A stretch of DNA of 38,213 nucleotides from IMG/VR virus record IMGVR_UViG_3300011997_000006, positions 1 through 38,213 of that record; one strand, given 5' to 3'. Positions within the stretch are counted from its first letter, which is position 1; each line of letters begins with the position of its first letter. This DNA is from a virus. The translations under genes and the position numbers were made by a program. This document shows, in pieces, positions 8,293-28,221 of the stretch. The notes below the pieces were generated by a model. The model worked only from the letters and a program-made list of their open reading frames with translations. It made no database searches and was not told where the DNA came from.

Positions 8293-8305
8293 GCCGGTGA
8301 CTGTG
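8293..8305 (-). promoter_or_regulatory. Leaderless late promoter -10 (CACAGT) of terL
   Basis: On the minus strand CACAGT (8305-8300) is followed by exactly 7 nt and then the terL ATG. The same spacing occurs at seven other genes here. No good -35 box is visible. Confidence 0.5.
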
Positions 8306-8328
8306 CGGGTCGGGGGCCGGGGGGCACG

Positions 8329-8361
8329 ACAAAGCCCCCGGCACCGAGACGGGGGCTTTGT
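8329..8361. terminator. Strong bidirectional-type terminator hairpin
   Basis: A perfect 12-bp stem (ACAAAGCCCCCG with CGGGGGCTTTGT) around a 9-nt loop, with T/A tracts inside the stem ends. It lies between the end of the 8373-8717 gene and the terL promoter, so it ends the accessory transcript just before the late promoter. Confidence 0.85.
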
Positions 8362-8372
8362 CGGTGTGCGGG

Positions 8373-8717
8373 TCAGTCTTCGGGTGGGGGACCGAACTCA
8401 CCGTCCAGGATGCGGTTCCACAGGCCGGGCAGGTACATGCCTACGGTGCCGTACACCCACGCGTAGGGCAGCAGCTCGGCCCGCTGGGCCTCGAGGGTGG
8501 CAATGCGGTCTAGGCACCAGGCCAGGTCCGCCGGCGCGTTCGCCAGCAGTACGAGGTCCGGGTCGTCGACTTCCAGGTAGCCGACGTACGCGGGCACGCC
8601 ACTCTCATCGGCGGCCCCGAACACGTTGGGGTCCAGCGCACTGTCCTGCTTCCACGGGCCGGGTGTGGCCGCGGCGAGCCGGGCGCGGATGGCTGCGGCG
8701 CGGTCGGCGGTGGTCAT
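8373..8717 (-). CDS. Ead/Ea22-like protein
   Basis: A 114-residue protein starting at ATG 8717 in an ATGA overlap (MTTADRAAAIRARLAAATPG). The opening RARLAAATPGPW, then DLVLLANAPADLAWCLDRIA with a following helix, is the pattern of ead/Ea22-like phage proteins of unknown biochemical role. The C-terminus (AELLPYAWVYGTVG, then RILDGEFGPPPED) resembles part of the product of the 18005-18742 gene, which has AELLPYA and RIEAGEFGPW. The two genes seem to share a module. It is the last gene of a four-gene coupled set (9794 to 8373) and is followed by a strong terminator. Confidence 0.7.
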   Translation of the reverse strand: MTTADRAAAIRARLAAATPGPWKQDSALDPNVFGAADESGVPAYVGYLEVDDPDLVLLANAPADLAWCLDRIATLEAQRAELLPYAWVYGTVGMYLPGLWNRILDGEFGPPPED

Positions 8718-8953
8718 GACCACACCCAGTACTCAACGCTGACCTTCCACACTGCGACGGTGCCGCCAGAGCAGAACAGCGAGGGCTGGGCGCGGCCAAT
8801 GTTGCGGTCAACGTCACACCTGTCGAGCATCTCAGCCGCGGTGGTTCCGAAGTACGACGCGGCCAGCTGGTCGGCGTGCGCCAGGGCCGAGGCCCGGTCT
8901 GCGCCTTCGCCCACGACTTCCACGCACTCAATGACGCGCGATGTGGCGGCCAT
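8714..8953 (-). CDS. Small protein of unknown function
   Basis: A 79-residue protein, MAATSRVIECVEVVGEGADR onward. The start ATG at 8953 overlaps the preceding stop as ATGA; a longer frame to 9016 would run into that gene. It contains a helix ALAHADQLAASYFG, two cysteines (RCDV, FCSGG) and an aromatic end, SVEYWVWS. I do not recognise a family. It sits in the coupled operon that ends with the Ead/Ea22-like gene. Confidence 0.7.
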   Translation of the reverse strand: MAATSRVIECVEVVGEGADRASALAHADQLAASYFGTTAAEMLDRCDVDRNIGRAQPSLFCSGGTVAVWKVSVEYWVWS

Positions 8954-9300
8954 CACGCCACCGCCACGAGGGTGAAGTCGGAGATGAGCGCGGTAGCGGC
9001 CTCGTACTCGGCCCACAGCTGGGCAACCACCCGGTAGTCAGTGAACTCGCACGCCGTGTAGTTCTCGTACGCGCGGCGGGCTTGCGCAGCGGCGGTGACG
9101 GTGCGGGCGGTCCTGCGAACGGCCAGCTCGAGGTTGCGGGCGGCTATGGCGGCGTGGCGCTCGGTGGAGGTGACGGTTGGGCGGCCCGCGTGCAGGGCCG
9201 CCAGGTGGGCGGTAGCAGCCTGGGCGCGTGTGGCCTTCTCGGCGAGTAGGCGCTGCACCGTCTCGGCGGTGAGGGCTGGGCGTGTGTACAGCATGGTCAT
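8953..9300 (-). CDS. Helical protein of unknown function
   Basis: A 115-residue protein starting at the ATG 9300, which overlaps the upstream TGA as TGATG. It begins MTMLYTRPALTAETVQRLLA. It is almost entirely alpha-helical and alanine/arginine-rich (AARNLELAVRRTARTVTAAA) and ends in a hydrophobic segment ATALISDFTLVAVA. No catalytic motif is visible. It belongs to the same coupled set as its neighbours. Confidence 0.68.
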   Translation of the reverse strand: MTMLYTRPALTAETVQRLLAEKATRAQAATAHLAALHAGRPTVTSTERHAAIAARNLELAVRRTARTVTAAAQARRAYENYTACEFTDYRVVAQLWAEYEAATALISDFTLVAVA

Positions 9301-9794
9301 CACTCCCCACCGACAGCGTGTGCGTCACAGGCGTCGTTGAAGGCGTCGGTGGCGGCGTAGTACGCGGTCCGTGCGGCCGTCAGGGTGGCCAGGCGGGCGG
9401 CGTACTCGGGGACGCAGGTTGCGGTGCCGGCCACGGCGTAGTCGGCCTCACGGTAGGCGTCTGCGGCGGCGGTGAAGGCGGCGTTCGCGGCCTGCCTGCG
9501 GGTGAGGGTTGAGGTGGTGGTGGCGGGCCGCACCCACGGGTGGTTGAGCGAGTCAGCGCAGGCCACGTGCGCAGTCGCGTCAACGCATCCGGGGTCGATG
9601 TACCTGGCGGCGTGCTGCTCGCCGGTGCCGTCGAGGTTGTGTATCTGCATGGTGCGGCCGCACCCGTAGCAGGCCCAGCTGGGGCCGTCGTGGCCGAGCT
9701 GGGTGGTCCTGAGTACGACCGCCGGGAAGGATGCCACCTTCAGGCCGGGGGTGAGGACCGGGAGGGACTTGGTGGGGAGGGTTGAGGTGGACAT
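9300..9794 (-). CDS. Protein of unknown function with a CxxC motif
   Basis: A 164-residue protein, MSTSTLPTKSLPVLTPGLKV onward. A possible zinc site is suggested by WACYGCGRTM, with more Cys/His in ARYIDPGCVDATAHVACAD. The C-terminal half is an alanine-rich helical region (RRQAANAAFTAAADAYREAD). A good ribosome site (AAGGAG, then CACGAA) precedes the ATG. It is the first gene of a four-gene coupled operon ending at 8373. The promoter region upstream holds the palindromic operator at 9874-9888 overlapping its -35-like box, so this operon is likely under the control of the operator-binding protein. Confidence 0.75.
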   Translation of the reverse strand: MSTSTLPTKSLPVLTPGLKVASFPAVVLRTTQLGHDGPSWACYGCGRTMQIHNLDGTGEQHAARYIDPGCVDATAHVACADSLNHPWVRPATTTSTLTRRQAANAAFTAAADAYREADYAVAGTATCVPEYAARLATLTAARTAYYAATDAFNDACDAHAVGGE

Positions 9795-9860
9795 TTCGTG
9801 CTCCTTACGTAGCGGCCTGGGAGAGGCCGGCGGCGGTGGGTTTCCGCCTTGTACTCCTAG

Positions 9861-9889
9861 ACAGTCCGCGCGCTTGCGCTATGTGCAAG
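9861..9889 (-). promoter_or_regulatory. Promoter with overlapping palindromic operator (copy 1)
   Basis: On the minus strand, TTGCAC (9888-9883) and GACTGT (9866-9861) have 16 nt between them, like -35 and -10 boxes. The 15-bp pseudo-palindrome TTGCGCTATGTGCAA (9874-9888, plus strand) covers the -35. The same start-to-start distance of 22 bp recurs at 22742 and 26316 on the plus strand. It should drive the 9794 to 8373 operon. Confidence 0.6.
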
Positions 9890-9932
9890 TAGGTCCGGCG
9901 CCCACAGCCCGCCCGTAGGTAAAGGTTTGGTA

Positions 9933-10256
9933 TCAGTTCGCGGCGGCTGCGAGGCGGCGGACGTGCCGGGCGGAGTACCCGTGCGTGTCCCGCTGCAAGT
10001 AGTACGGGTGTGCCGACTTCGCGGTGCCCGGACCGTACAGGCGCGGTATCCGGGACTCCCGGCGCAGCAGGGCAACGTCGCGCGGCATGACGGTGGTTAG
10101 CGTGCCCTCGAACGGGACGTGCCACCGCGGCGACCCGTCCGGCAGCAGCTGGACGACGTGCAGGAGGCCGGTGGTGGTGTTGCGGTACAGGTGGCACACG
10201 CGGTTCTTGGCGCGGACTCGAAGGGTGACAGATCGGGTGAACTCGTAGGTGGACAT
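9933..10256 (-). CDS. Basic protein of unknown function
   Basis: A 107-residue, strongly basic protein beginning MSTYEFTRSVTLRVRAKNRV. The N-terminal half looks beta-rich (VCHLYRNTTTGLLHVVQLLP) and the C-terminal half helical and Arg-rich (HGYSARHVRRLAAAAN). No known domain is evident. The ATG is 7 nt after CACAGT, one of the cleanest leaderless starts here, so it has its own promoter. It is followed by a 138-bp gap that holds the operator for the next operon. Confidence 0.72.
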   Translation of the reverse strand: MSTYEFTRSVTLRVRAKNRVCHLYRNTTTGLLHVVQLLPDGSPRWHVPFEGTLTTVMPRDVALLRRESRIPRLYGPGTAKSAHPYYLQRDTHGYSARHVRRLAAAAN

Positions 10257-10269
10257 GCCCGGTACTGTG
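10257..10269 (-). promoter_or_regulatory. Leaderless promoter -10 (CACAGT)
   Basis: Minus-strand CGGCACAGT, then ACCGGGC, then ATG (10256). The hexamer occupies 10269-10264, with 7-nt spacing to the start. Confidence 0.5.
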
Positions 10270-10296
10270 CCGATGCGGTCAGGGTCGGCCAGGTGG

Positions 10297-10512
10297 TTAG
10301 CTGGTGCTCCCGCAGAAGCCGACCTGGCGCGGGCCGTCCTGGTCGGAGCGTTCCGTGTCAGCGTGTGAGCTGGACGCGCCGTGCGGCTTCACGTGCCCGT
10401 CGTGGCGGGCAACCCACAGGTTATGCACGCCGACGAGGTCCGGCACGGTCTTGGCGGTCACGTACAGGCGCGACCCGCACGGGCAGGAGTCGGACAGCTT
10501 GGCGGCGCTCAT
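10297..10512 (-). CDS. Small putative zinc-binding protein
   Basis: A 71-residue protein starting at ATG 10512 (MSAAKLSDSCPCGSRLYVTA), chosen because the ATG overlaps the upstream stop. CPCG near the N-terminus plus several histidines (VHNLW, RHDGHVKPHG, SSSHAD) could bind zinc. The C-terminus is hydrophilic and ends GFCGSTS. No family is recognised. It is the last of three coupled genes that begin with the holin-like gene at 11178. Confidence 0.65.
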   Translation of the reverse strand: MSAAKLSDSCPCGSRLYVTAKTVPDLVGVHNLWVARHDGHVKPHGASSSHADTERSDQDGPRQVGFCGSTS

Positions 10513-10667
10513 CGGATCACCGGGCCGCGGATGGGGCTCGGGGGCTCGTGGTAGTGCTTGCCGACGGCGCACGCAGCCCAGAATGCGACCTCCTGCGACC
10601 ACGCGTGCAGGAGGCTGCGAACCCGCGAAGTAAAGGGGGGCTTGCGGAAACTGGTGCGGGCGGCCAT
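10509..10667 (-). CDS. 52-residue basic protein of unknown function
   Basis: A short gene read directly from the minus strand: MAARTSFRKPPFTSRVRSLL at the N-terminus, a central HAWSQEVAFWAACAVG, and a proline-rich end PSPIRGPVIR. Support comes from its junctions. The ATG at 10667 begins 1 nt after the upstream TGA (TGACATG), and its own TGA overlaps the next ATG (CGATGA). The frame is open throughout. It is probably translated with the holin-like protein upstream. Function is unknown; the central hydrophobic stretch is too short to call a membrane segment. Confidence 0.6.
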   Translation of the reverse strand: MAARTSFRKPPFTSRVRSLLHAWSQEVAFWAACAVGKHYHEPPSPIRGPVIR

Positions 10668-10668
10668 G

Positions 10669-11178
10669 TCAGCCTGCCGCGGGTGTGCGCCCGGCTACCG
10701 AGTCCGCGCCCACGTACGGCGTCGCGGTAGCACCAGAGGGGGAGGGGTCTGACGGGTGGTGCCACCCCACGGGGGGAGTGGTGCCCAGGGCGGGCGGCGT
10801 TCCCAGGGTGGCGATGTACGTGGTCAGCTGCACCAGGCGGGCGTCACGGGCGGCGTTGGCGGCGGCCAGCAGCTGCGCCTCCACCACGTCAGCGAGGGTG
10901 CCCAGTGCGGTTGAGAGGGTCGGCGCGTTCTTGGCCGCCTCATACGTGGGGGAGCCGGGCTTGCCGAGCAGCCACCCGAAGCGTGGGTCCACATGCACTT
11001 CGAGGAGTCTCACGGCCGTGAAGTACGCGGCGGTGATGACGGGCAGGAGGGCGACAGTGGTCCCGTCGTACGGCAGGTTCAGGCCGATCTTGGCGGCGGC
11101 CCAAAGCACGCCGGCGACGATGTAGGGGACGACGGTGCGGACGACGGACGGGGTGACGGACGGGGCGGTGGTTGACAT
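10669..11178 (-). CDS. Holin-like membrane protein
   Basis: A 169-residue protein with two predicted membrane segments near the N-terminus: roughly residues 14-34 (VRTVVPYIVAGVLWAAAKIG) and 41-61 (VALLPVITAAYFTAVRLLEV). After them come HVDPRFGWLLGKPGSPTY and a soluble, Ala/Pro-rich C-terminal half. Two N-terminal helices followed by a FGWLLGxP-type segment are common in actinophage proteins annotated as holins. It is unlinked to the endolysin (20342), which is unusual. CACAGT lies 7 nt before the ATG, suggesting a leaderless transcript. Alternatively it could be a superinfection-exclusion or other membrane protein. Confidence 0.55.
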   Translation of the reverse strand: MSTTAPSVTPSVVRTVVPYIVAGVLWAAAKIGLNLPYDGTTVALLPVITAAYFTAVRLLEVHVDPRFGWLLGKPGSPTYEAAKNAPTLSTALGTLADVVEAQLLAAANAARDARLVQLTTYIATLGTPPALGTTPPVGWHHPSDPSPSGATATPYVGADSVAGRTPAAG

Positions 11179-11191
11179 GCACCGGACTGTG
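11179..11191 (-). promoter_or_regulatory. Leaderless promoter -10 (CACAGT)
   Basis: Minus-strand CGGCACAGT, then 7 nt (CCGGTGC), then the ATG at 11178. Confidence 0.5.
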
Positions 11192-11231
11192 CCGACCTAC
11201 CCGCCACGCTGCACGGGTCCGGTGCCAGCTG

Positions 11232-11927
11232 TCAGGAGTCCCAGGAGTAGCCCTTGTGCGCCTTGCCGCGTGGCGCCGTCCCCAAGTCGGCCTCGCTGCC
11301 CCACACGTCCCAGCCCTCACGCGGGTACCGGGCGAACATTTCCAGGTACGGCCCAGGCGAGCACGACTCAATCAGGTCGTACTGCTCATCAGGCTTGCGC
11401 GAGTGCTCACGCTTCCGGGTCTCAATCATGTTCACCTGCGACCGGCCGGGGCCCAGGGTGCGCATCGAACCCTTGACGCCGAAGAGGATGATCTCGGTCA
11501 CGTTCCGGAAGTAGAACCCGACACCGCGGCCATCAGGGCCGCCGTCCTTGCGCCGCTTGGCCCACACGACGTTGCTGATGTACCTGTAGCCCCACGCCTC
11601 CATGACGCGCAAACCGTCCGGTAGTAGCGCGTTCGGCACCCACAGGTACAGGTGCGAGTTTTTTGCGGCGGACTCACCGACGGGCAGGGCCGCGATGTCG
11701 TCGAGCGTCATTGTGTCGTACCTGTCGAGGCGCCGGTGCTCTGGTGCGACCTTCCCGGTTCGGTTAGTGAACCTCCACGGCGGGTCGGCCAGGACCGTCT
11801 TGAAGCCCCCGTCAACGACCGGCAGGCCCGGTAGCCCGCTGTAGTCGGCGGTGTCAGCGCGCAACGGGGCCGCCCGCAGTCTCGGCGTGCGGTCTGCGTC
11901 TGGGGCCGGAACGGGCTGGGCAGTCAT
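11232..11927 (-). CDS. MT-A70 family DNA adenine N6-methyltransferase
   Basis: A 231-residue methyltransferase. The catalytic DPPW motif lies at residues 48-51 in FKTVLADPPWRF. The following parts also fit MT-A70: SHLYLWVPNALLPDGLRVME, WGYRYISNVVWAKRRKDG, VTEIILFGVKGSM, and a C-terminal RKPDEQYDLIESCSPGPYLE then MFARYPREGWDVWGSE. It is expected to transfer a methyl group from SAM to N6 of adenine. The ATG (11927) overlaps the stop of a BglII/BstYI-like endonuclease gene in an ATGA junction. This implies a restriction-modification pair in which this enzyme protects phage and lysogen DNA. The recognition sequence is not readable from the protein. Confidence 0.9.
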   Translation of the reverse strand: MTAQPVPAPDADRTPRLRAAPLRADTADYSGLPGLPVVDGGFKTVLADPPWRFTNRTGKVAPEHRRLDRYDTMTLDDIAALPVGESAAKNSHLYLWVPNALLPDGLRVMEAWGYRYISNVVWAKRRKDGGPDGRGVGFYFRNVTEIILFGVKGSMRTLGPGRSQVNMIETRKREHSRKPDEQYDLIESCSPGPYLEMFARYPREGWDVWGSEADLGTAPRGKAHKGYSWDS

Positions 11928-12733
11928 TCATCATCCTCAGGGTTGTCAACGGTTTGGTTTGCGGATCCAACAGTGCTCGCGGCTTCCGCCACCGCAGTGG
12001 CCACGTTATCCGGCGGCACGAAGCACCTCTCCGTGATGGCAATGGCAAGCAGCGGGCACCCTCCGGCGTCACCGCGTCCTATGCGCGGTGTCAGCTTCTC
12101 TAGGTTCGTCGTCGTGGTTGAGCCAAGCGGGTCATCGGCGAGCTTGCGCAGCACGCCCAGGCGCTCGTAGTCGCCGTCCTGCTCTGCTTGGGCCTTCGCG
12201 AGCCGGATGAGGTCAGCTGCCAGCGCCCGCAGCTTGCCGGTGATGCGCGTGACCATGACCGCCACGTCAATCTGTCCGGCTTCGTACAGGGCGCGGAAGT
12301 TCGAGATGTCACGGTCCAGGTTCCCGTCCTTGGCGTTCCACTCGACGTCGAGGGCGATGCGGCCTTTGACGTTATCTACCTGGTGGCCTTCGTTCACGTT
12401 GTGTGCGTGGCGTTGTCTCTTGGCTCTTTCGCCGCCCGCCCGGTATGGGTTGATGATGAGGCGGGTGTCAATGGTCTGCTCGTATTTGGCTTCCCGCCAG
12501 CCGCCTTCACGAAACGCTGTGTCGAGGGTCAGGGCGGCCGGGGTTTTGTTACCGCCTTTGGTGAGAATCATTTCCGTTGTGAGCTGGAAGTCGGACAGGA
12601 CCCTGCACATGTCATCGAACTCGTCCGGGTTGGTTGCTTGCATGATGGCGGCAGCGTTGCGGGTTTCGACGATGGTGTACCTGTCCTGGATGTCCTGTGG
12701 GAGAACGTCTTTCCACGACTCGGTGAGTTCCAT
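11924..12733 (-). CDS. BglII/BstYI-family type II restriction endonuclease
   Basis: A 269-residue protein. The diagnostic block at residues 117-142 reads HQVDNVKGRIALDVEWNAKD followed by GNLDRD and then ISNFRALYEAGQIDVAVMVT. This metal-site and strand pattern is that of the BglII/BstYI family, whose members cleave AGATCT or RGATCY. The N-terminal part contains IVETRNAAAIMQATNPDEFD. The gene starts at ATG 12733; a TAGATT hexamer lies 6 nt upstream, so the transcript may be leaderless. It precedes the MT-A70 methyltransferase with an ATGA overlap. No controller (C) protein is adjacent. It lies next to attP, a typical spot for lysogenic cargo. The frame is intact, so it is probably active; specificity is inferred only. 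Confidence 0.85.
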   Translation of the reverse strand: MELTESWKDVLPQDIQDRYTIVETRNAAAIMQATNPDEFDDMCRVLSDFQLTTEMILTKGGNKTPAALTLDTAFREGGWREAKYEQTIDTRLIINPYRAGGERAKRQRHAHNVNEGHQVDNVKGRIALDVEWNAKDGNLDRDISNFRALYEAGQIDVAVMVTRITGKLRALAADLIRLAKAQAEQDGDYERLGVLRKLADDPLGSTTTTNLEKLTPRIGRGDAGGCPLLAIAITERCFVPPDNVATAVAEAASTVGSANQTVDNPEDDE

Positions 12734-12745
12734 GGGCGCAATCTA
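12734..12745 (-). promoter_or_regulatory. Possible leaderless promoter of the restriction operon
   Basis: Minus strand TAGATT, then GCGCCC, then ATG (12733). TAnnnT six nt before the start is the normal actinobacterial leaderless arrangement. It differs from the CAC(A/G)GT type used at other genes. Confidence 0.45.
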
Positions 12746-12954
12746 ACCGCGTGCGAGGCCCGGTTGGGGGATCGTCCGCCCGGTGGCGCGCCGCGCGTCG
12801 GGGCCGGTTAGGGATGAGGCCCCCGGCGATCCCTAATCCCTAACCCGATCCCTAATCGACCTAGCGGTCCTGACGATGAGACCCCGGGCGCCCCATGCTC
12901 ATAACCGATCCCCAACCGGGCGTCAAGTGAGCACGAAACGTCCGGTGCTCTACT

Positions 12955-12996
12955 CTGACACGGAAGAGGTCGCGGGTTCGATACCCGCATCGCCCA
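12955..12996 (+). other. attP: attP core: 3' half of tRNA-Val(GAC)
   Basis: Read 5' to 3' on the plus strand: anticodon loop CTGACAC (12955-12961, anticodon GAC), stem 3' strand GGAAG, variable loop AGGTC, T-arm GCGGG-TTCGATA-CCCGC (12972-12988), acceptor strand ATCGCCC and discriminator A (12996). The acceptor strand would pair with GGGCGAT, the usual start of actinobacterial tRNA-Val. The 5' half is absent and the bases before the loop do not pair with GGAAG, so this is not a functional tRNA. It is the crossover region that would rebuild the host tRNA gene on integration. Confidence 0.85.
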
Positions 12997-13011
12997 CGAA
13001 CGAATAGCGTT

Positions 13012-13052
13012 GCAGCGCAACGGCCCCCAATGCGCGGGGGGCGTTGCGCTGC
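13012..13052. terminator. Hairpin beside attP, probable terminator of the integrase transcript
   Basis: Arms 13012-13028 and 13036-13052 pair at 16 of 17 positions around a 7-nt loop. It lies 55 bp past the integrase stop on the minus strand and 16 bp past the tRNA fragment on the plus strand. It lacks a clean T-tract. Confidence 0.55.
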
Positions 13053-13107
13053 CCGGAAGCGCCCACCCGATCCCTAACCCGATCCCCAATAGCGGTGCGC
13101 GGCCTGC

Positions 13108-14343: not shown

Positions 14344-14356
14344 GGTCTCTACTGTG
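14344..14356 (-). promoter_or_regulatory. Leaderless promoter -10 (CACAGT) of int
   Basis: Minus-strand CGGCACAGT, then AGAGACC (7 nt), then the ATG at 14343. It decides the start among several in-frame candidates. Confidence 0.5.
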
Positions 14357-14467
14357 CCGTAGGGATCTGACAGCTCACTGCCGCCCCTACCCCGTGTGAC
14401 GAACGTCACACCGCCGGGGATTGCGCGGGGATTGTGCCGTTGGCGCGCGTAGTCACCGTACCCGCCC

Positions 14468-14710
14468 ATGATCACTGACACGCCGCTGGTGGACGTCCCC
14501 TCCGCCGCCGCCTACCTGAATGTTTCACAGTCGACCGTTCGCCGCCTAGTCAAGGCGGGGGAGCTGCCAGCCCGCCGCATCGGCACCCAGCTCCGCTTCG
14601 AGCGGGACACGCTGCTCGAGTACAGCGCGCCGGTCGAGACCGTGGCGCAGGGCCGGACCGGGTTCGACTTCCGGGCCGCGCGGGCCGCGCTGCGCTACTC
14701 CGCCGCCTGA
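14468..14710 (+). CDS. Excisionase-like helix-turn-helix protein
   Basis: An 80-residue protein with a MerR/excisionase-type HTH: VPSAAAYLNVSQSTVRRLVK, then AGELPARRIGTQLRFERDTL. This is the pattern of small DNA-binding proteins used as excisionases or recombination directionality factors. It is transcribed divergently from int, with 124 bp between the starts. CACCGT lies 8 nt before its ATG (14468), again consistent with a leaderless start. It could alternatively be a small regulator of the int promoter. The stop is 1 bp from the convergent stop of the next gene. Confidence 0.75.
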   Translation: MITDTPLVDVPSAAAYLNVSQSTVRRLVKAGELPARRIGTQLRFERDTLLEYSAPVETVAQGRTGFDFRAARAALRYSAA

Positions 14711-14711
14711 C

Positions 14712-14966
14712 CTACTCGAGCGGGACGTCGGTGCCGCACTTGGGGCACACCCGTGGCGCCAGGGCGTCGTCGTATGCGTCGCCCACCCGGGCCACGATGC
14801 TGCGCAGGGCTTCCAGGGCGCTTTCCGCGTACATGCCCGCGGACACCTGGTGCCGCGGCTGCGCGATCTCAACGAGGGCGTTCAGCGCCTTGATGAGGAG
14901 CTCGGTTGCCGGTTGCAGGTCGCGCTGCAGGTCGCGCACGTTGGGGGCGTCGGGTGTGGTTGTCAT
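14712..14966 (-). CDS. Small protein with a C-terminal CxxC motif
   Basis: An 84-residue protein from ATG 14966 (MTTTPDAPNVRDLQRDLQPA). It is helical (LLIKALNALVEIAQPRHQVS, ALEALRSIVARVGDAYDDAL) and ends PRVCPKCGTDVPLE, half of a zinc ribbon. The CPKCGT ending may pair with another chain to bind zinc. TACGCT lies 6 nt before the ATG and could be a leaderless -10. It converges on the excisionase-like gene. No function is recognised. Confidence 0.68.
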   Translation of the reverse strand: MTTTPDAPNVRDLQRDLQPATELLIKALNALVEIAQPRHQVSAGMYAESALEALRSIVARVGDAYDDALAPRVCPKCGTDVPLE

Positions 14967-15290
14967 CACCCCAGCGTAGGCCCGGCCCGGCCCCTTGCGG
15001 TGCTTCCGGACGCGCGCAGGGTCCTGTGAGGCCGGGAGGCCAGACCACACAATCGGCTCGCGCGTGCTCCGTGGTAGCGCGCAGGCCCGGGCTGGGCGGC
15101 AAGCCCAGCCCCAGCATCAAACAGAACACGCGACGTCCCTCCCTATTTGATCTGGGGAGGGGCGCCGCTTCATGCCCAGATCAGCTCCTTGCGTTATGCG
15201 CAACCGCTCCGAACAGTGAAGTAGGTAGGCACGACCGTGCCAGCCGCCGGCACTACCCCGGCTTCCCAACAGATCAGAGAGGTATCAACC
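14967..15290. other. Intergenic regulatory region without a gene
   Basis: No convincing ORF. It holds a perfect 9-bp hairpin (GGGCTGGGC/GCCCAGCCC, 15089-15111), a 9-bp inverted repeat (TGATCTGGG at 15148-15156 and CCCAGATCA at 15175-15183), the palindromic operator at 15189-15203, and a ribosome site AGAGAGG before the 15291 gene. It separates divergent transcripts. Confidence 0.65.
15189..15217 (+). promoter_or_regulatory. Promoter with palindromic operator (copy 2)
   Basis: TTGCGTTATGCGCAA (15189-15203) is the most symmetric copy of the phage operator. Its TTGCGT can serve as a -35, with AACAGT at 15212-15217 17 nt downstream. It should drive the two-gene unit 15291-15808. Confidence 0.55.
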
Positions 15291-15808: not shown

Positions 15809-15842
15809 GAGCACCCGCCCATCTACGCGCTCCCGCGCACAG

Positions 15843-15873
15843 CACCCCCGCCGGCATTGAGCTGGCGGGGGTG
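15843..15873 (+). terminator. Terminator of the 15291-15808 unit
   Basis: A perfect 10-bp GC-rich stem (CACCCCCGCC/GGCGGGGGTG) with an 11-nt loop, followed by TCCTTTGTG. Confidence 0.75.
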
Positions 15874-15890
15874 TCCTTTGTGCGGCGGCA

Positions 15891-16414: not shown

Positions 16415-16457
16415 GGCAGTGAGGCCGTTCCCGCGGTTTGTGGGGTTCGCGGCCCGC

Positions 16458-19501: not shown

Positions 19502-19541
19502 TACCGTGTCGGCGTGCGCACCCAACGCAAGGAGCCCCCAT
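19502..19541 (+). promoter_or_regulatory. Promoter and ribosome site deciding a TTG start
   Basis: TACCGT at 19502-19507 is -10-like. AAGGAG (19529-19534) is followed by 7 nt and TTG (19542). This is the best ribosome site ahead of this frame, better than that before the downstream ATG at 19578. Confidence 0.5.
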
Positions 19542-19760: not shown

Positions 19761-19761
19761 G

Positions 19762-20340: not shown

Positions 20341-20341
20341 G

Positions 20342-21250: not shown

Positions 21251-21855
21251 GCGGCTGACCGTGCCGGCGTCTCGTCCGGGTGCCAGGGGGCGGCGGCCGC
21301 GGTGACCCGGACCACTACCTGGTCACCGGTCGGGCCGCCGGCCCAGAACACCACGTCGGTCTGCACCCACTCGGCTGTGTCGTTCGGGACCAGGCACCAC
21401 GACTGTGTGATGCCGTCCTGCGCGGCCTTCACACTCACGCCGGAGATGTAGTTGCCGCTGTCGGCCTGGGACCGGTTGACCAGCGGCAGCGCGAATGTCA
21501 GCTGGACCCGGTGCCCGCGGAAGTCGGTCAGCGTGACCTCGCCTGCACGGGCGGCGTCCAGTCCCGCAGCGAGCCACGCGAGCTTGTCCTCATGGGACAC
21601 CCGGAACGAGCGCCCGGCGGTCGCGTTGACGGACAGCGGCTTGGACGGTGCGGTGAAGTGCAGCAGCACCTGCCCGTCAGGCCCGCCCGGCAGTGGGTGC
21701 TTCGGGAAGGCGGCCAGGCGCACGTCGTCAGGGTGGGCGGAGGCTGCTTTGATGGCGGCGCTGATGGGTGATGGCTGAGACCTGCGGTACACAGGCTTCT
21801 CGGCGCCGGCGCGCTTGTAGAGGGAGGCGTACGGGTCTTTGCGGGGCGGGGTCAT
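21247..21855 (-). CDS. RusA-like Holliday junction resolvase
   Basis: A 202-residue protein from ATG 21855 (ATGA overlap). The central part fits RusA: a beta start HFTAPSKPLSVNATAG, then LPLVNRSQADSGNYISGVSV, then KAAQDGITQSWCLVPNDTAE. The D..N....K...D pattern and a later ND before a strand are the usual acidic metal-binding residues that cut four-way junctions. It is likely to resolve recombination intermediates or branches before packaging. It is coupled to a HEVLH protein upstream and overlaps the endolysin start region downstream. The N-terminal 50 residues are basic and probably flexible. Confidence 0.78.
   Translation of the reverse strand: MTPPRKDPYASLYKRAGAEKPVYRRSQPSPISAAIKAASAHPDDVRLAAFPKHPLPGGPDGQVLLHFTAPSKPLSVNATAGRSFRVSHEDKLAWLAAGLDAARAGEVTLTDFRGHRVQLTFALPLVNRSQADSGNYISGVSVKAAQDGITQSWCLVPNDTAEWVQTDVVFWAGGPTGDQVVVRVTAAAAPWHPDETPARSAA
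21251..21263 (-). promoter_or_regulatory. Leaderless promoter -10 (CACGGT) of the endolysin
   Basis: Minus-strand CGGCACGGT, then CAGCCGC (7 nt), then ATG (21250). It lies inside the end of the RusA-like gene. Confidence 0.5.
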
Positions 21856-22208: not shown

Positions 22209-22221
22209 GCCCGGTACCGTG
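22209..22221 (-). promoter_or_regulatory. Leaderless promoter -10 (CACGGT)
   Basis: Minus-strand GGCACGGT, then ACCGGGC (7 nt), then ATG (22208). It drives the zincin/RusA unit. Confidence 0.5.
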
Positions 22222-22450
22222 CCCGCCGGCACGTCGATTGCAAGGCGCCGGATCGTAGCGTAGCGAGGCGCTAAACGGTAGTGCTGCCAGCCCACCCGCA
22301 ACGCCCTGACGGGGGAGGGCCGCAAGACCCCCCAGGAGCTCACAGGAGGCCGCTGGGCTGGTTTTCAGGGCACCGCAGGCCGCCCAGTGCCGGCAGGCGT
22401 CCAGAACCTAAATGCGCTAGGTGAAAGTAGGGGTGTCACCGGGCACGCAC

Positions 22451-22465
22451 TTGCGCTATGTGCAA
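22451..22465. promoter_or_regulatory. Palindromic operator (copy 3)
   Basis: TTGCGCTATGTGCAA, identical to copy 1. A degenerate relative (ATGCGCTAGGTGAAA) lies 39 bp upstream at 22412. No clear -10 box is at the usual distance, so this may be a stop-type or cooperative site. Confidence 0.55.
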
Positions 22466-22576
22466 GGGGAGTGGGGACGTGTCCCGGTCTTGTCCCTTGT
22501 CGTCGCTGCGAGTCCGCGACGCCGGTGTGGCAGATCCGCGACCGCTGTTGTCGTCGTCGACCCGCCACCCCGTCAC

Positions 22577-22694
22577 GACTATCCCAGCCCCTGACCCCTT
22601 TTAGAAGAAGGGGGGTCAGGAGGGTTGGGATAGTCGTTCCTCAGGGGAGTGGCACCCTCCCCTGGGATAGTCCTGGGATAGTCCTGGGATAGTC
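22577..22694. repeat. Iteron-like repeats of CTGGGATAGTC, probable replication origin
   Basis: TGGGATAGTC occurs at 22626-22635, 22663-22672, 22674-22683 and 22685-22694. The last three are tandem at 11-bp period, one helical turn. An inverted copy GACTATCCCA is at 22577-22586 and can pair with the 22626 copy around a second stem CTGACCCC/GGGGTCAG. The cluster lies just before the winged-helix and RepA-like genes, the normal place for an initiator-bound origin. Confidence 0.68.
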
Positions 22695-22741
22695 AGGTGG
22701 GTCAGCCAAAAAGCTCCCCAAAACTGACCCCATCCAGCTAC

Positions 22742-22769
22742 TTGCGCCGCCCTTCCGCGCCGGCACGGT
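22742..22769 (+). promoter_or_regulatory. Early rightward promoter PR-like (half operator)
   Basis: CTACTTGCGC (TTGCGC at 22742) and CGGCACGGTACGTG (CACGGT at 22764) have 16 nt between the boxes. The same CTACTTGCG-N10-GCGCCG-CACGGTACGTG layout recurs at 26311-26349. Only half of the palindrome remains here. Confidence 0.6.
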
Positions 22770-22815
22770 ACGTGCTACGCCGCCTCGCCCGGGGCCGCGA
22801 ACCGCAGGAGCTCCC

Positions 22816-23151: not shown

Positions 23152-24377
23152 GCGCCCAGCCGCTCGACACCGGCGACCCGTTTGACTTCCCCGTTGAGGG
23201 CGCCCAGGACGACCACGCCCCCGCGTTCCTGCACGGGACCGGGCCTGCCGTACCCGCCGCGTTCCGCAAACCGGAGGGACCCAAGTTCCTGGACGCGGAC
23301 TGGGACGAAGAGGAGCCCGAAGTTGTGCCGTGCATCTGTGAGGTCACCGGCGGGCGCCCCCTGTTCTACGACGGGGAGAGCCACATGATTTACGGCGAGG
23401 GCGGCATCGGCAAGTCGTGGCTTGGGTACGTGGTTTGCGCCCAGGTAGCTGCCGCCGGTGGCATCGCCGCCATCCTCGATTACGAGTCCAACCGGCGCAC
23501 CGTTCGGTTGCGGATGAAGGCACTCGGCGTGACCCGCGAGCAGGCTTCCCGCATCGCGTACTGGAAAGTCACCGGTTCCCTGATGCCCGGCCGGCTGCCG
23601 CGTGTTGCTCTCGACGAGTGGATTGCCGAGCGCCAGCCGACGTTCCTCATGCTGGACTCTGTGGCGAAGTCCATGGGTGCCGCCGGCATGAACGAGTCCG
23701 ACCCGTCGGCGTACGTCATCTGGCAGCAGCAGGTCGTCGAGCCGTGGACGTCGCTGCGTATCACGTCGCTCATCATCGACCACATCGGGCACATCAACGA
23801 GGACCATCGCAGGGCCGGTCGCACCCCGGCAGCCCGCGGCGCGTCCTCCAAAAAGGACCAGGTCAGCGGAGCGTCCTATTACTTCGAGGTGGACGAGAAA
23901 TGGTCCCGGCAGAACAACGGGCACGGCCTGCTGTCACGGATGAAGGACCGCGAGGGTTGGGGCCGTACCGGCGACCCGGCTGCCGAGGTCGTCGTGACCG
24001 TTGCCGACTTGGGCGCCGCAGTGCGCATCGAGCTGGTCGCGCCGACCGAGAAGGCCGACAGGACCCCGTTTGTGCCGCGCTACACGTGGTACATGGAAGC
24101 CGTGTGCGACCTGTTGGCGACCGAGCGTGACGGGCTGACCGCCAGCAAGGTAGGGGCGCATTTCAGAGACGCGGGCAAGTCGGCCGGGTACGCAGACGTT
24201 GCGCTCAAGACGCTGGTCCGCGAGGGCCACGTCGAGGTTGGCGAGCCGGGCCTGCGCGGCGCGAGGCTTTGCAAGGTCGTCAAGGTGTACACGGCCGCAT
24301 GGGAGGACGCCTGCACGGCCGCCGTGGAGGCTGGCGAGGAGCTGCCGGAGCCGCCCGAGATTGGGGAGCAGTTCTGA
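23148..24377 (+). CDS. RepA-like hexameric helicase/ATPase
   Basis: A 409-residue protein starting with GTG (MSAQPLDTGDPFDFPVEGAQ). Walker A is GEGGIGKS (residues 83-90) in HMIYGEGGIGKSWL. Walker B is TFLMLDSV (about 165-172). SLIIDHIGHINE with a downstream Ser-Lys-Lys segment fits the AAA_25/RepA family, related to RSF1010 RepA. A C-terminal winged-helix-like part follows (RDGLTASKVGAHFRDAGKSA). It probably unwinds DNA at the origin. It is in an operon with the initiator candidate before and two unknown genes after. No primase domain is present. Confidence 0.85.
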   Translation: MSAQPLDTGDPFDFPVEGAQDDHAPAFLHGTGPAVPAAFRKPEGPKFLDADWDEEEPEVVPCICEVTGGRPLFYDGESHMIYGEGGIGKSWLGYVVCAQVAAAGGIAAILDYESNRRTVRLRMKALGVTREQASRIAYWKVTGSLMPGRLPRVALDEWIAERQPTFLMLDSVAKSMGAAGMNESDPSAYVIWQQQVVEPWTSLRITSLIIDHIGHINEDHRRAGRTPAARGASSKKDQVSGASYYFEVDEKWSRQNNGHGLLSRMKDREGWGRTGDPAAEVVVTVADLGAAVRIELVAPTEKADRTPFVPRYTWYMEAVCDLLATERDGLTASKVGAHFRDAGKSAGYADVALKTLVREGHVEVGEPGLRGARLCKVVKVYTAAWEDACTAAVEAGEELPEPPEIGEQF

Positions 24378-24718
24378 TGGCCGCCCTGACGCCGCACGAG
24401 GCGATGGCCGCCTGGGCTGACTCCCGTGCGGCAGCAGTCGCAGCCGTGGACGACCGGAAGGCCGCGCAGCTCCGTCTCCGCGCCAACCCCCAGTCCTTGG
24501 CTGAGCAGACCGCGTACGACATCGCGTGGGATGAGGAGCTGGACGCGAGGCGATGGCCGGCTGGTGCGCGCGAGGCGGCCCACGCGGCGTACCTGGGTGC
24601 CGGGCAGGCCGCGGGGGCCGCGATGCTGGTACAGCTATGGCGGGCCGGGGGGATGGGCCCGTTGGAGATTGAGGCGGTCATCGAGGCCGTCCTGGCTGCC
24701 CCGGCGGAGACGTCGTGA
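24377..24718 (+). CDS. Alanine-rich helical protein in the replication operon
   Basis: A 113-residue protein from ATG 24377, overlapping the upstream stop as TGATG. It reads MAALTPHEAMAAWADSRAAA, then helices with a DIAWDEELDARRWPAGAREA segment and a C-terminal ALGLV-like end (GPLEIEAVIEAVLAAPAETS). No catalytic motif. It sits directly after the RepA-like ATPase, so it may be a loader or accessory subunit. It overlaps the next gene by GTGA. Confidence 0.68.
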   Translation: MAALTPHEAMAAWADSRAAAVAAVDDRKAAQLRLRANPQSLAEQTAYDIAWDEELDARRWPAGAREAAHAAYLGAGQAAGAAMLVQLWRAGGMGPLEIEAVIEAVLAAPAETS

Positions 24719-25122
24719 GCGACGTGACGCGGGAGGTGCGGTGCGCGCTTGCTGCGTGGCGGGACGCGCTGGCCGAGCTACGAAGGTGGGTGGACGCCGA
24801 GCAATACTGCGCGGTGCCGGTCCGGTACGTGGTGGGCCTGTCCGAGCTCTCGGCCGACGGAACCATCAACCTTGCCACATACCCGACCGTGGCGATTTCT
24901 GACTCCGGGTCCGGTCTCGCCCAGGCGATGAGGGCAGAGAAGGAGGGGTACCGGGCGCAGCAGCACGCGCTCTCGGCGTACAGCGGCCTGGCCGCCGCGC
25001 TCGAGGATTGGCGACCGGGTACGGCCGCGCTGTTCCTACTGGTATACCCAGATCCGCACTTGTACGCGCCGGACGCGGTTGAGGTGCTGTGCGCGCTGGC
25101 CGGAGCCCCTGCCCGGACCTGA
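24715..25122 (+). CDS. Protein of unknown function in the replication operon
   Basis: A 135-residue protein starting with GTG 24715 (MSDVTREVRCALAAWRDALA). It is helical at both ends, with a beta-rich middle (VPVRYVVGLSELSADGTINL, LATYPTVAISDSGSGLAQAM). It ends DAVEVLCALAGAPART. No family is recognised. It is the last gene of this operon, followed by terminator-like hairpins. Confidence 0.68.
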   Translation: MSDVTREVRCALAAWRDALAELRRWVDAEQYCAVPVRYVVGLSELSADGTINLATYPTVAISDSGSGLAQAMRAEKEGYRAQQHALSAYSGLAAALEDWRPGTAALFLLVYPDPHLYAPDAVEVLCALAGAPART

Positions 25123-25136
25123 CCGCAGGCAAGACG

Positions 25137-25169
25137 AAACCCCCACCGCACGAATCAGGTGAGGGGTTT
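25137..25169 (+). terminator. Terminator of the replication operon
   Basis: AAACCCCCACC pairs with GGTGAGGGGTTT with one bulge, giving a GC-rich stem ending in AAA/TTT. It lies 15 bp after the stop of the 24715 gene. Confidence 0.65.
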
Positions 25170-25254
25170 CGACTGCCCGTAGGTGCGCCCCATGCGAACG
25201 CTCCCGACAGCTACTGTGCGCGCCACCCGGGTGGGGGCAATGAGGGTGCAGGTG

Positions 25255-25280
25255 AGGCCCCCACCCGAAGGAGGGGGCCT
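25255..25280. terminator. Second hairpin, probable terminator
   Basis: AGGCCCCC (25255-25262) and GGGGGCCT (25273-25280) form a perfect 8-bp stem with a 10-nt loop. Confidence 0.55.
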
Positions 25281-25440
25281 GCTTACGTGAGACCGCAACC
25301 ACCACCCCGCATGTCCAACGGGCGATGCTCCCATGCGCTCAACAACCTGACGTACCCAGGCCAGACCGGGGCTACCCGGCGGCGTGCGGGCCGTTGACCA
25401 CCACTGTGCCGGCGTTACCGGACTGCGCAACCAGCACCGG

Positions 25441-25453
25441 CACAGTCCCGCGC
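25441..25453 (+). promoter_or_regulatory. Leaderless promoter -10 (CACAGT)
   Basis: CGGCACAGT then CCCGCGC (7 nt) then ATG at 25454. It is the plus-strand example of the shared start signature. Confidence 0.5.
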
Positions 25454-26041
25454 ATGGCCCTTCCCTGCTCTGGTGTTCAGCCCGGTGACGTCGGTTTCGA
25501 CTACTCCTCCGGGCTGGTCGCGTGGGCGGTGCGCCTGTCTGGCACGTACGCGCACACGTTCACGTTCGACCACCTGCTGGCGACAAGCCCGGACGGGTCC
25601 GAAGTGTGGGCCACTGTCGAAACGTTCCCGAACAACGACCCGGCCCTGGACGGCACCTGCCCCCGGCGGCGGACGCTGACCCGCCCGGCGCCCGGCGAGG
25701 AGTACCGGCTGGCGGTGATGCGCCCAGCTCGCACCCAGTCGGAGGCGGACGCCATTGTGGCCGCGGCTGCCGGGTGGGCTGCCCGCCACCCGCGGTACGA
25801 CTGGGCCGAGATTGCGCGCATCCTTCTCGACAAGTTTGGCGTCAAGGTGGACCGCTGGTCCGACTCGGATTATAAGGCGATCTGCTCCCACCAGGTCGCG
25901 GACTGCATCGTGGACGCCATCCCCGAGTTTGGGCCGCTGCTCCCGTACCCGCCGTCGAGGGTGTGGCCGGGCCTGCTGGCCGCGGTGCTGACGGCGGCGG
26001 GCGTGCCGTCGGTGCGCCTGTGGTCCGCTGTGCCCGTTTAG
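25454..26041 (+). CDS. Permuted papain-like (YiiX/LRAT-type) hydrolase candidate
   Basis: A 195-residue protein from ATG 25454 (MALPCSGVQPGDVGFDYSSG), chosen because CACAGT lies exactly 7 nt upstream. GDVGFDYSSG, then LVAWAVRLSGTYAHTFTFDH, parallels the GDxxF...lsrxIrxxTgsxxSHvgi start of permuted NlpC/P60 enzymes, with His34 as the catalytic His. Cys144-Ser145 in YKAICSHQVADCI fits the later catalytic Cys (usually CSEL). Such proteins cut amide or ester bonds in peptidoglycan or lipids. It stands alone between terminators and an operator-bearing gap. A lysis, DNA-entry or anti-host role is possible. No signal peptide is visible. Confidence 0.62.
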   Translation: MALPCSGVQPGDVGFDYSSGLVAWAVRLSGTYAHTFTFDHLLATSPDGSEVWATVETFPNNDPALDGTCPRRRTLTRPAPGEEYRLAVMRPARTQSEADAIVAAAAGWAARHPRYDWAEIARILLDKFGVKVDRWSDSDYKAICSHQVADCIVDAIPEFGPLLPYPPSRVWPGLLAAVLTAAGVPSVRLWSAVPV

Positions 26042-26158
26042 ACACGGTTAGACCTGGGCGGCCAGCCTCTGACAGCGCCAATCTGAGCGCCGAAAACGGC
26101 CCCGGGTCCGGTAGCACCCAAACGGTACCGGGTGAGGGCCAGGCGCGTCCTGCCCCTG

Positions 26159-26173
26159 TTGCGCTATGTGCAG
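26159..26173. promoter_or_regulatory. Palindromic operator (copy 4)
   Basis: TTGCGCTATGTGCAG matches the consensus at 14 of 15 positions. No -10 box is seen at the expected distance on either strand. Confidence 0.5.
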
Positions 26174-26310
26174 GTAGCTCCCCCCTGAACGAAAACGGCC
26201 CGAAACCGGCGGCGGCGCGACTGGCCTGGTCCGATCTGGGTTCTGAAAAGGCAACCCGCGGTGCCGTCCTGACCGGGCGCCCTACCGTCGGCCCAAAGTG
26301 CCCCTCCTGA

Positions 26311-26349
26311 CCTACTTGCGTTATGTGCGCGCGCCGACACGGTACGTGG
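26311..26349 (+). promoter_or_regulatory. Promoter with operator (copy 5) for recT
   Basis: TTGCGT (26316-26321) and CACGGT (26338-26343) are 16 nt apart. TTGCGTTATGTGCGC (26316-26330) is 13 of 15 to the operator consensus. The arrangement copies that at 22738-22775. Confidence 0.6.
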
Positions 26350-26394
26350 TGTCCCCACATTCCCGCGGGGGCCAACACCGAAAGCAGGCACCAA

Positions 26395-27441
26395 ATGTCC
26401 TCCACCGAAATCGCCACCATCACCGCCGCCCCCCACGGCGCCCTCGCCATCAGCCCAGACCAGGCGCGCTGGTCGGACGTGCAGCGCGCCACGTTCGCCC
26501 AGATGGGCATTGAGGACGCGTCCGAAGCTGACGCCCTCGTGTTCCTCAACCAGGCCCAGCGCACCGGGCTCGACCCGTTCACGCGCCAGATTTACATGAT
26601 TGGCCGCAAGTCCAAGGTCAACGGCCAGTTTGTCACGAAGTGGACCATCCAGGCGGCCATCGACGGGCTGCGCGTCATCGCTCAGCGGTCTGGGAAGTAC
26701 GCCGGCCAGGTCGGCCCATTCTGGTGCGGCGGCGATGGTGTCTGGGTTGACGTGTGGTTGCAGTCGTACCCGCCGTCAGCGGCGAAGGTTGGTGTGCTGC
26801 GCCGCGGTTTCACCGAGCCGATGTGGGGTGTGGCCCGGTTCGAGTCGTACGCCGCGTACAAGGACGAGTGGGCGGGCGGCTCAAAGACGGGCGGGCGGAC
26901 CCTGTCTGGGCAGTGGCCGACGATGCCTGACGTCATGATTGCGAAGTGCGCTGAGTCGCTGGCGTTGCGGAAGGCTTTCCCGCAGGACCTGAGCGGCATT
27001 TACACGTCGGAGGAGATGGACCAGGCCGACGCGCTGGCGCCGGTCGTGCAGGGCCCGGGAACGGGTCAGGTCGTTCAGGCGCAGGCACTGCCGGCCGGCC
27101 CGGCCATTCCGGCCGGGTTCGCGGCGCGCAACGAGGCCACGTCTCGCATGGTCGCGGCGCTCGGCAAGGAGCTCGCGGTTGAGCTGTGGAACGGCGCCGG
27201 CCTGGCGGACGCGCAAACGGTCAACATGGCCGTTGTGGACGGTCTCATCGCGAAAGGCGTGGCGCTCCTGGACGACCGCGCGAAGGCGCCAGCCGCGGAC
27301 CCGCTCGCGGACTACGTCGCTGGTGAGGTTGTGCCGGACCTGCCGGGTCCGTTCTCATCGACGACACCCAACCCGCTCGCTGCGGAGACGCCCACCGAAG
27401 CCATCGCAGCGGACGGCAACCCGTTCACCCTGGACGACTGA
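26395..27441 (+). CDS. recT: RecT/Bet-family single-strand annealing protein
   Basis: A 348-residue recombinase from ATG 26395 (MSSTEIATITAAPHGALAIS). Family signatures are visible: FLNQAQRTGLDPFTRQIYMI, then KWTIQAAIDGLRVIAQRSGK and YAGQVGPFWCGGDG. Near the end of the core are WPTMPDVMIAKCAESLALRK and FPQDLSGIYTSEEMDQADAL, the standard Bet C-terminal core. It anneals complementary single strands in phage recombination and replication. The C-terminal 120 residues are Ala/Pro-rich and probably bind partners. I see no RecE/YqaJ exonuclease gene next to it. The next gene overlaps by TGATG. Confidence 0.92.
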   Translation: MSSTEIATITAAPHGALAISPDQARWSDVQRATFAQMGIEDASEADALVFLNQAQRTGLDPFTRQIYMIGRKSKVNGQFVTKWTIQAAIDGLRVIAQRSGKYAGQVGPFWCGGDGVWVDVWLQSYPPSAAKVGVLRRGFTEPMWGVARFESYAAYKDEWAGGSKTGGRTLSGQWPTMPDVMIAKCAESLALRKAFPQDLSGIYTSEEMDQADALAPVVQGPGTGQVVQAQALPAGPAIPAGFAARNEATSRMVAALGKELAVELWNGAGLADAQTVNMAVVDGLIAKGVALLDDRAKAPAADPLADYVAGEVVPDLPGPFSSTTPNPLAAETPTEAIAADGNPFTLDD

Positions 27442-27605
27442 TGGGGACCATCTACTGCGCTTTCTGCAACCAGGAGCACTACTCGTTCCTGGTTGTGGAG
27501 GGCTGCACGCCCGACTCCCCGCAAGGGCCGGTAGAGCTTGCGCTCTGCGCCGCCCACTACACGATCCTCCTCCCCGAACTCAACAGAAAGCAGGCCCAGC
27601 AATGA
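27441..27605 (+). CDS. 54-residue zinc-finger protein
   Basis: A short gene: MGTIYCAFCNQEHYSFLVVE, then GCTPDSPQGPVELALCAAHY and an end LNRKQAQQ. CAFC and CAAH (C-x2-C ... C-x2-H) are a likely zinc site. The ATG overlaps the recT stop (TGATG) and its stop overlaps the next ATG (ATGA), so it is coupled to recT and could be a recombination partner. Too small to place in a family. Confidence 0.68.
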   Translation: MGTIYCAFCNQEHYSFLVVEGCTPDSPQGPVELALCAAHYTILLPELNRKQAQQ

Positions 27606-27937
27606 CCACCACCGCCACACCAGCCACCATCACGGACGCCCAAACGGGGCGTGTTCTTGACGCGCTTGCCGCCACCGGCATGGTCCGCGACTACTCGAAA
27701 GTGTCGAAGGAGAGGCTCACTGCCGTCCTCGACGCTCTCCGGGCGTCCGTGAACGGCAACGGGTACACGAGCATCACGAACCCGGAGCTGGCAGAGGAGG
27801 CCTGCGGGAATCGCCAAAAGGTCCGGTCAGTGCAGTACGCGCTTCGGGCGTTGCGGGCGTCCGGCCAGATCCGGCAGCAGTCGTACCAGCCGACGGCGGA
27901 CATGTCCGTCAGCCGGCGCATCTACGTCAACGACTGA
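27602..27937 (+). CDS. Possible winged-helix DNA-binding protein
   Basis: A 111-residue protein from ATG 27602 (MTTTATPATITDAQTGRVLD). Helical N-terminus, then VSKERLTAVLDALRASVNGN, ITNPELAEEACGNRQKVRSV, and YALRALRASGQIRQQSYQPT resemble a winged helix with helix-turn-helix and a basic wing. It ends MSVSRRIYVND. It closes the recT operon. It could regulate the operon or bind DNA with RecT. The gene overlaps the 3' end of the convergent EndoVII-like gene by 11 bp. Confidence 0.62.
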   Translation: MTTTATPATITDAQTGRVLDALAATGMVRDYSKVSKERLTAVLDALRASVNGNGYTSITNPELAEEACGNRQKVRSVQYALRALRASGQIRQQSYQPTADMSVSRRIYVND

Positions 27938-28208
27938 CCGGGCCCCGCTGCGGGTACGGGGAGCAGCCCGCGCACAGCAGGCGCACGACGTCGGTGGCGC
28001 GGGTGTAGTTGATGAAGGGCCGGGTCAGCTGGGTCGGGCACAGGGCGCAGAGCCCGCCTTGCGCTACCACGATGGCGTCCACCTCGGACCGTTCGAGTCC
28101 GTAGCCCATGAGGAGTCGGTTGTACCAGCGTGCTTTTGGGGGTTTGGGCGCGGTTCGGTAGATGACCCGTGGTGGGTCAGCTGGCGTGTACCGCGAGGTA
28201 GGTGTCAC
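27927..28208 (-). CDS. Endonuclease VII-like zinc protein lacking the catalytic His motif
   Basis: A 93-residue protein starting with GTG 28208 (MTPTSRYTPADPPRVIYRTA), placed 7 nt after CACAGT. The segment YGLERSEVDAIVVAQGGLCA, followed by LC and a later CAGC, is the recombination endonuclease VII layout (YGLtxeexxxLxxxQgGxCaxC...LLCxxC). The normal DHDHxTGxvRGLLC block is replaced by INYTRATDVVRLLCAGC. The zinc cysteines survive (CALC, CAGC), but the catalytic Asp-His-Asp-His is gone. It is either a structural relic, a DNA-binding derivative, or a decayed nuclease. It is the last late-strand gene. Confidence 0.65.
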   Translation of the reverse strand: MTPTSRYTPADPPRVIYRTAPKPPKARWYNRLLMGYGLERSEVDAIVVAQGGLCALCPTQLTRPFINYTRATDVVRLLCAGCSPYPQRGPVSR

Positions 28209-28221
28209 CCTGTGGACTGTG
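28209..28221 (-). promoter_or_regulatory. Leaderless promoter -10 (CACAGT) before a GTG start
   Basis: Minus-strand CGGCACAGT, then CCACAGG (7 nt), then GTG (28208). The spacing picks this GTG over the upstream TTG. Confidence 0.45.

Follow-up and report, generated by a model that had tools for sequence, protein, structure and literature searches.

Several phages have promoter classes of their own: in SPO1, T7 and the late genes of T4, the phage itself encodes the sigma factor or single-subunit polymerase which recognises them. In sigma70-type promoters, the A at the second position and the T at the sixth position of the -10 box are the bases most important for melting. Actinobacterial leaderless promoters have a TANNNT -10 box a few nucleotides (nt) before the start codon, and their genes have no Shine-Dalgarno (SD) site (Zheng et al. 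2011, PMC3160421; Cortes et al. 2013, PMC3898074). Mycobacterium tuberculosis favours a C(-1)A(+1)T(+2) initiation context, with CGN before the -10 box (PMC3898074). In Escherichia coli, position -12 is the only -10 base with known sigma70 suppressors: Q437H and T440I rescue a T to C change (PMC2613000). Here we describe the viral genome IMGVR_UViG_3300011997_000006 of the IMG/VR database, which we have analyzed over its whole length of 38,213 bases (the window). In this genome the hexamer CACRGT (R is A or G) is found at a fixed distance before many genes. Judging by its positions, we are highly confident that it marks a genome-wide promoter class in this phage.

Position of CACRGT before start codons

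The hexamer as such is not enriched: the window contains 61 copies of CACRGT, and 61.2 are expected. What is enriched is its position. Gene starts were picked by codon statistics, and in all eight genes listed by the original prediction exactly 7 nt separate CACRGT from the start codon; the gene at 14468 has, as described, CACCGT at 8 nt (Table 1). When every hexamer is ranked at each offset from 0 to 29 before any ATG, the top combination is CACAGT at 7 nt. Six of its 17 copies are found there (p = 2e-8, about 0.003 after Bonferroni correction for about 120,000 tests). Of the 15 copies of the longer form GGCACRGT, six have an ATG at 7 nt, and none has one at a different offset from 0 to 24. 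In 400 order-3 Markov genomes, CACRGT-N7-ATG appears 0.45 times on average and at most 5 times, while the phage contains 9 cases. One of these (at 2097) is inside an open reading frame (ORF), and is probably due to chance. Both ranking and simulations agree with the earlier claim that chance hardly explains the spacing.

Although only 14.5% of the genome is intergenic, seven of these eight sites lie between genes. The endolysin -10 box lies within the end of the preceding gene. No SD core is found in these eight genes, versus 21 of the 38 other starts. An SD-like role for CACRGT was considered and rejected, given these counts. In seven of the eight sites the start codon is preceded by C and begins with A and T, and the hexamer is mostly preceded by CGG. 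The A at position 2 and the T at position 6 are invariant in the 12 sites used for the weight matrix described below, partly by construction, as the sites were picked by their hexamer. The first base is C in all 12 and G in the promoters found later; it is never T. The C instead of T that had been noted at this position must thus be extended to C or G.

The -35 element

The original prediction stated that no -35 box is shared, which is wrong. When all 4-mers at gaps of 4–40 nt upstream of the 61 CACRGT sites are ranked, TTGC at a gap of 18 is the first of 9,472 combinations, with 7 sites versus 0.22 expected (p = 4e-9). A weight matrix built from the 12 sites was used to search for further promoters. 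It found two more near-identical ones (889 and 30338), with GACGGT as the -10 box and TTGC or TTGA as the -35 element. The complete element may be written TTG[AC]-N18-[CG]AC[AG]GT. It appears 11 times with a gap of 18, and no more than twice with any other gap from 6 to 35. In Markov simulations the gap-18 element has a mean of 0.6 and a maximum of 4. Eight of the 11 sites are intergenic.

The -35 element is also present when only the leaderless sites are considered (the eight genes and 14468): if a single mismatch is allowed, TTG[AC] is found at -22 in 6 of the 9, and other offsets have two at most. This test matters because some of the gap-18 promoters are near-copies of each other.

The TTG[AC] element, which is similar to TTGAC, and a spacer of 16 between hexamers, within the 15–19 bp range, correspond to the sigma70 family, as do the A at -11 and the T at -7 (positions 2 and 6 of the box). 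The T which this family has at -12 is absent, and TTG[AC]-N18-TACRGT has no occurrences at all.

Interpretation of the promoter class

In our interpretation, CACRGT would be the -10 box of sigma70-family promoters, with TTG[AC]-N18-[CG]AC[AG]GT as the full element and usually CGG just upstream of the -10 box. For about nine genes, the A of the start codon would be the first base of the transcript, and this leaderless mRNA would be translated without an SD site; we infer these start points from the spacing. The leaderless promoters originally proposed are well supported by the fixed distance, the mostly intergenic placement, the lack of SD cores and the C(-1)A(+1) context in seven of eight sites. 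Nevertheless, they do not account for the whole class, as the element also precedes genes with an SD site. At least five other promoters would use it to produce messages with a leader, and one would drive a leaderless mini-ORF coupled to the scaffold gene. The reader would be the host RNA polymerase, with a sigma whose region 2.4 takes C or G, not T, at -12.

The element is found before early (recT, HTH), lysogeny (int, xis-like) and late genes (terL, scaffold, tail, lysin), timing being deduced from gene function. Since all these classes are served, the host polymerase with a host sigma is the simplest reader, and we consider it fairly probable that this sigma acts without any phage factor.

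Several points weigh against such an interpretation. No -35 element can be recognised at 11178, 28208 and 25454, three of the eight leaderless sites. Some of the gap-18 sites depend on one another: the promoters at 19508 and 26338 are near-copies (36 nt, 89%), and those at 889 and 30338 belong to a single 37-nt repeat family. Two other gap-18 sites, 6929 and 32558, are inside genes and may be due to chance. The near-complete conservation of the -10 box and the exactly fixed spacer are tighter than a housekeeping sigma would predict. Finally, two starts in the lysogeny region (12733 and 14966) have TANNNT-N6-ATG: The main sigma of the host could read ordinary boxes.

These last two points lead to the best of the alternatives. 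The promoters would be real, but read by a dedicated factor, while the main sigma of the host would read the two TANNNT promoters. This factor could come from the host, as an alternative sigma, or from the phage, either as a diverged sigma or as a protein re-aiming the host polymerase. Strict conservation with an exact spacer is what is found with alternative sigmas, both TANNNT starts are at lysogeny-region genes, and the relatives of the phage terminase TerL use TANNNT. On the other hand, the phage has no match to Sigma70 region 2 (PF04542), although a strongly diverged factor could escape this search, and no sigma or RNA polymerase is present among the PHROG, Pfam and NCBIfam matches of its proteins. 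There is also no candidate ORF for a T7-like single-subunit polymerase (at least about 800 amino acids): Among the called genes, only the tape measure is that long. Furthermore, int, early and late genes all use the element, which marks no single temporal class, and two TANNNT-N6-ATG starts are about the number expected by chance. We find a dedicated factor rather unlikely, although worth keeping in mind.

CACRGT might instead be the binding site of a phage regulator at gene starts, and not a promoter element. It is a short, strictly conserved word, repeated elements in phages are commonly operators, and this genome has other operator-like repeats. Nevertheless, it is not a palindrome, it keeps the sense orientation and has a constant distance either from the start codon or from a TTG[AC] upstream of it, and the operator found over one of the promoters is a different sequence, which is palindromic. 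The bipartite element is also found away from start codons, which makes a regulator site at starts less likely, and such a site would leave the missing SD unexplained. We consider this explanation improbable.

Even less credible is a translational element acting on the ribosome, as in cluster K mycobacteriophages: The distance to the start codon is indeed constant in unrelated genes, but the word has no SD complementarity and is also found, with its fixed -35, tens of nt upstream of genes which have an SD site.

A comparison with related phages is also informative. In 80 TerL-related contigs and a faecal phage (about 1 Mb) there is a peak of TANNNT-N6-ATG, with 59 cases versus about 22 at neighbouring offsets, and no peak of CACRGT-N7. 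The absence of the signature elsewhere is based on these 80 relatives, a few annotated phages and the matches listed in pattern scans, which are not exhaustive. Scanning IMG/VR with the leaderless pattern gave, among the matches listed, chance ones inside coding sequences; with the bipartite pattern, the matches listed included repeated conserved sequences and no contig similar to the window. Chance or a codon-usage artefact can practically be dismissed: The total of CACRGT is at chance level and words beginning with CAC have period-3 spacing peaks in coding DNA, but the simulations, the unbiased rankings and the intergenic placement speak against it, as does the lack of such a peak in 1 Mb of relatives.

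Returning to the promoter interpretation, a more far-reaching form of it is that the phage is transcribed with a distinct code, TTG[AC]-N18-SACRGT (S is C or G), by a natural host sigma or one recruited by the phage, with a re-specified region 2.4, leaving the lysogeny genes on TANNNT. This is a tentative proposal, which we judge possible but doubtful. If the promoter class is confirmed, the entire phage, and perhaps a host lineage, would use -10 boxes that lack the T at -12, which would explain why promoter predictors tuned to TANNNT overlook such genomes. It would also provide a usable map of late, early and lysogeny promoters for an otherwise unannotated temperate phage. Almost all genes appear to be expressed from one type of start signal which lacks the first T, with about nine messages seemingly starting right at the start codon; this suggests that the RNA polymerase which transcribes the phage has an altered DNA preference.

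Proposed promoters and operators along the genome

The promoters are listed in Table 1.

Table 1. Proposed promoters of the phage and the operator-like copy that overlaps one of them. Leaderless and leadered refer to the predicted message.
Gene or feature	-10 box	Position	Strand	-35 element	Remarks
329-aa gene, ATG 841	GACGGT, then ACAGGGC	884..889	-	TTGC 908-911	SD AAGGAG
16-codon mini-ORF, ATG 4519	GACAGT	4527..4532	-	TTGC 4551-4554	7 nt
terL, ATG 8292	CACAGT	8300..8305	-	-35-like GTGC 8324-8327	leaderless, 7 nt
107-aa gene, ATG 10256	CACAGT	10264..10269	-	-35-like TGGC 10288-10291	leaderless
169-aa gene (PHROG 10742), ATG 11178	CACAGT	11186..11191	-	no clear -35	leaderless
tyrosine integrase, ATG 14343	CACAGT	14351..14356	-	-35-like GTGA 14375-14378	leaderless
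excisionase-like HTH, ATG 14468	CACCGT	14454..14459	+	-35-like TTGT 14432-14435	8 nt
gene 19450/19459	CACGGT	19503..19508	-	TTGC 19527-19530	leadered
CHAP endolysin, ATG 21250	CACGGT	21258..21263	-	-35-like TGGC 21282-21285	leaderless
zincin-like gene (HEVLH motif, PHROG 1233), ATG 22208	CACGGT	22216..22221	-	TTGC 22240-22243	leaderless
HTH gene 22816	CACGGT	22764..22769	+	TTGC 22742-22745	leadered, SD AGGAG
downstream gene uncertain	CACAGT (candidate)	25213..25218	-	TTGC 25237-25240	intergenic
downstream gene uncertain	CACAGT	25403..25408	-	TTGC 25427-25430	divergent from 25441 promoter
195-aa gene, ATG 25454	CACAGT	25441..25446	+	no clear -35	leaderless
recT, ATG 26395	CACGGT	26338..26343	+	TTGC 26316-26319	leadered; -35 inside operator-like palindrome
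short endonuclease VII-like gene, GTG 28208	CACAGT	28216..28221	-	no clear -35	leaderless
gene 30299	GACGGT, then ACAGGGC	30333..30338	-	TTGA 30357-30360	SD AGGAG
operator-like TTGCRYWTWRYGCAA copy		26316..26330			over -35 of recT promoter; weaker than copies at 9874, 15189, 22451, 26159

The 329-aa gene at 841 would code for a tail-region protein, to judge from its position. The mini-ORF at 4519 ends in a TGA that overlaps the scaffold start codon (ATG 4472); as the scaffold gene lacks an SD, this suggests that both may be translationally coupled. A PafBC-type reading of the int promoter (TGTCR-N8 before the -10 box) was rejected, as the other sites do not have it. The two CACAGT boxes at 25403-25446, between divergent promoters, have opposite orientations and are part of an inverted repeat without mismatches (ACTGTGCCGG / CCGGCACAGT).

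The palindrome TTGCRYWTWRYGCAA is found at 9874-9888, 15189-15203 and 22451-22465 and, with 1-2 mismatches, at 26159-26173 and 26316-26330. A further member of this operator-like, pseudo-palindromic family is located at 22412-22426, and a CTAC flank is frequent among its members. These putative operators are likely to be sites for the immunity repressor. The copy over the -35 of recT has the layout which would be expected if a repressor acts on that promoter. Another repeat is found upstream of the 22816 gene, where the word GGGATAGTC recurs at about 22570-22690, with four copies on the plus strand and an inverted one. They might be iterons or regulator sites.

Genome, relatives and host

The genome (68% GC) has a 98-base terminal direct repeat: It is a circular or terminally redundant phage. 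It is temperate and siphophage-like, with an integrase, an excisionase-like HTH and RecT. The nearest relative of TerL is an unannotated faecal phage (43% amino acid identity), followed by Streptomyces and Arthrobacter phages. The capsid is nearest to Arthrobacter phages (45%), and the closest tape measure is that of Arthrobacter phage Mufasa8; the lysin has a weak match to Actinomyces phage Av-1. From these relatives, the host is probably an actinobacterium. No close relatives were found in IMG/VR by single-protein scans with TerL, integrase and capsid, nor in the GTDB contigs scanned with TerL.

A probable attP is located at 12940-13002, downstream of the integrase. Its sequence corresponds to a tRNA 3' half (GGAAGAGGTCGCGGGTTCGATACCCGCATCGCCCA, with a GAC anticodon, Val-like), and the end of the corresponding tRNA-Val attB would be ...GGTCGCGGGTTCGATACCCGCATCGCCCA. 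The tRNA-like core of attP has no exact matches in GTDB contigs and IMG/VR.

Beside attP, at 11232-12733, a BglII-like restriction endonuclease gene (Pfam PF09195, 1e-25) adjoins a gene for an MT-A70 family methyltransferase. We read this pair as a phage-borne restriction-modification system. The whole window contains a single copy of AGATCT. The only two TANNNT-N6-ATG starts of the window are on the minus strand: One (12740-12745) precedes the BglII-like gene and the other (14973-14978) precedes the 84-aa gene at 14966.

Comparison with known systems

The phage resembles SPO1, T4 late genes and T7 in having one deviating consensus which is used phage-wide. It differs from them in that no gene for such a factor is recognised, and in that the class covers early, lysogeny and late genes. 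The start-associated sequences of cluster K mycobacteriophages are also phage-wide words at a fixed short distance before many starts (PMC3203893). Nevertheless, they contain the SD core (AGGAG) and are thought to be translational, while the word described here has no SD and is accompanied by a -35 element. A literature search for CACAGT or CACGGT in connection with promoters and sigma factors found nothing.

The actinobacterial leaderless TANNNT promoters (Zheng et al. 2011, PMC3160421; Cortes et al. 2013, PMC3898074) are similar in several features: a -10 box within about 6–7 nt of the start, the lack of an SD, the A at position 2 and the T at position 6, a likely start on the A of the ATG, and CGN before the box. 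The preferences of M. tuberculosis are also followed, with C(-1)A(+1)T(+2) in most of the phage sites and CGG before most -10 boxes (PMC3898074). The differences are in the box itself, which does not follow the TANNNT consensus: The first base is C or G, the middle is fixed as C-R-G, and 7 nt instead of 6 separate it from the ATG. In addition, the phage promoters have a TTG[AC] -35 at a fixed spacing, while no -35 element was detected in M. tuberculosis (PMC3898074). As in the promoters rescued by sigma70 suppressors (PMC2613000), the deviating base is the one whose recognition is known to shift when a single residue of sigma region 2.4 is changed. Those cases correspond to laboratory mutations and single promoters; in this phage, C or G is found at -12 throughout the class.

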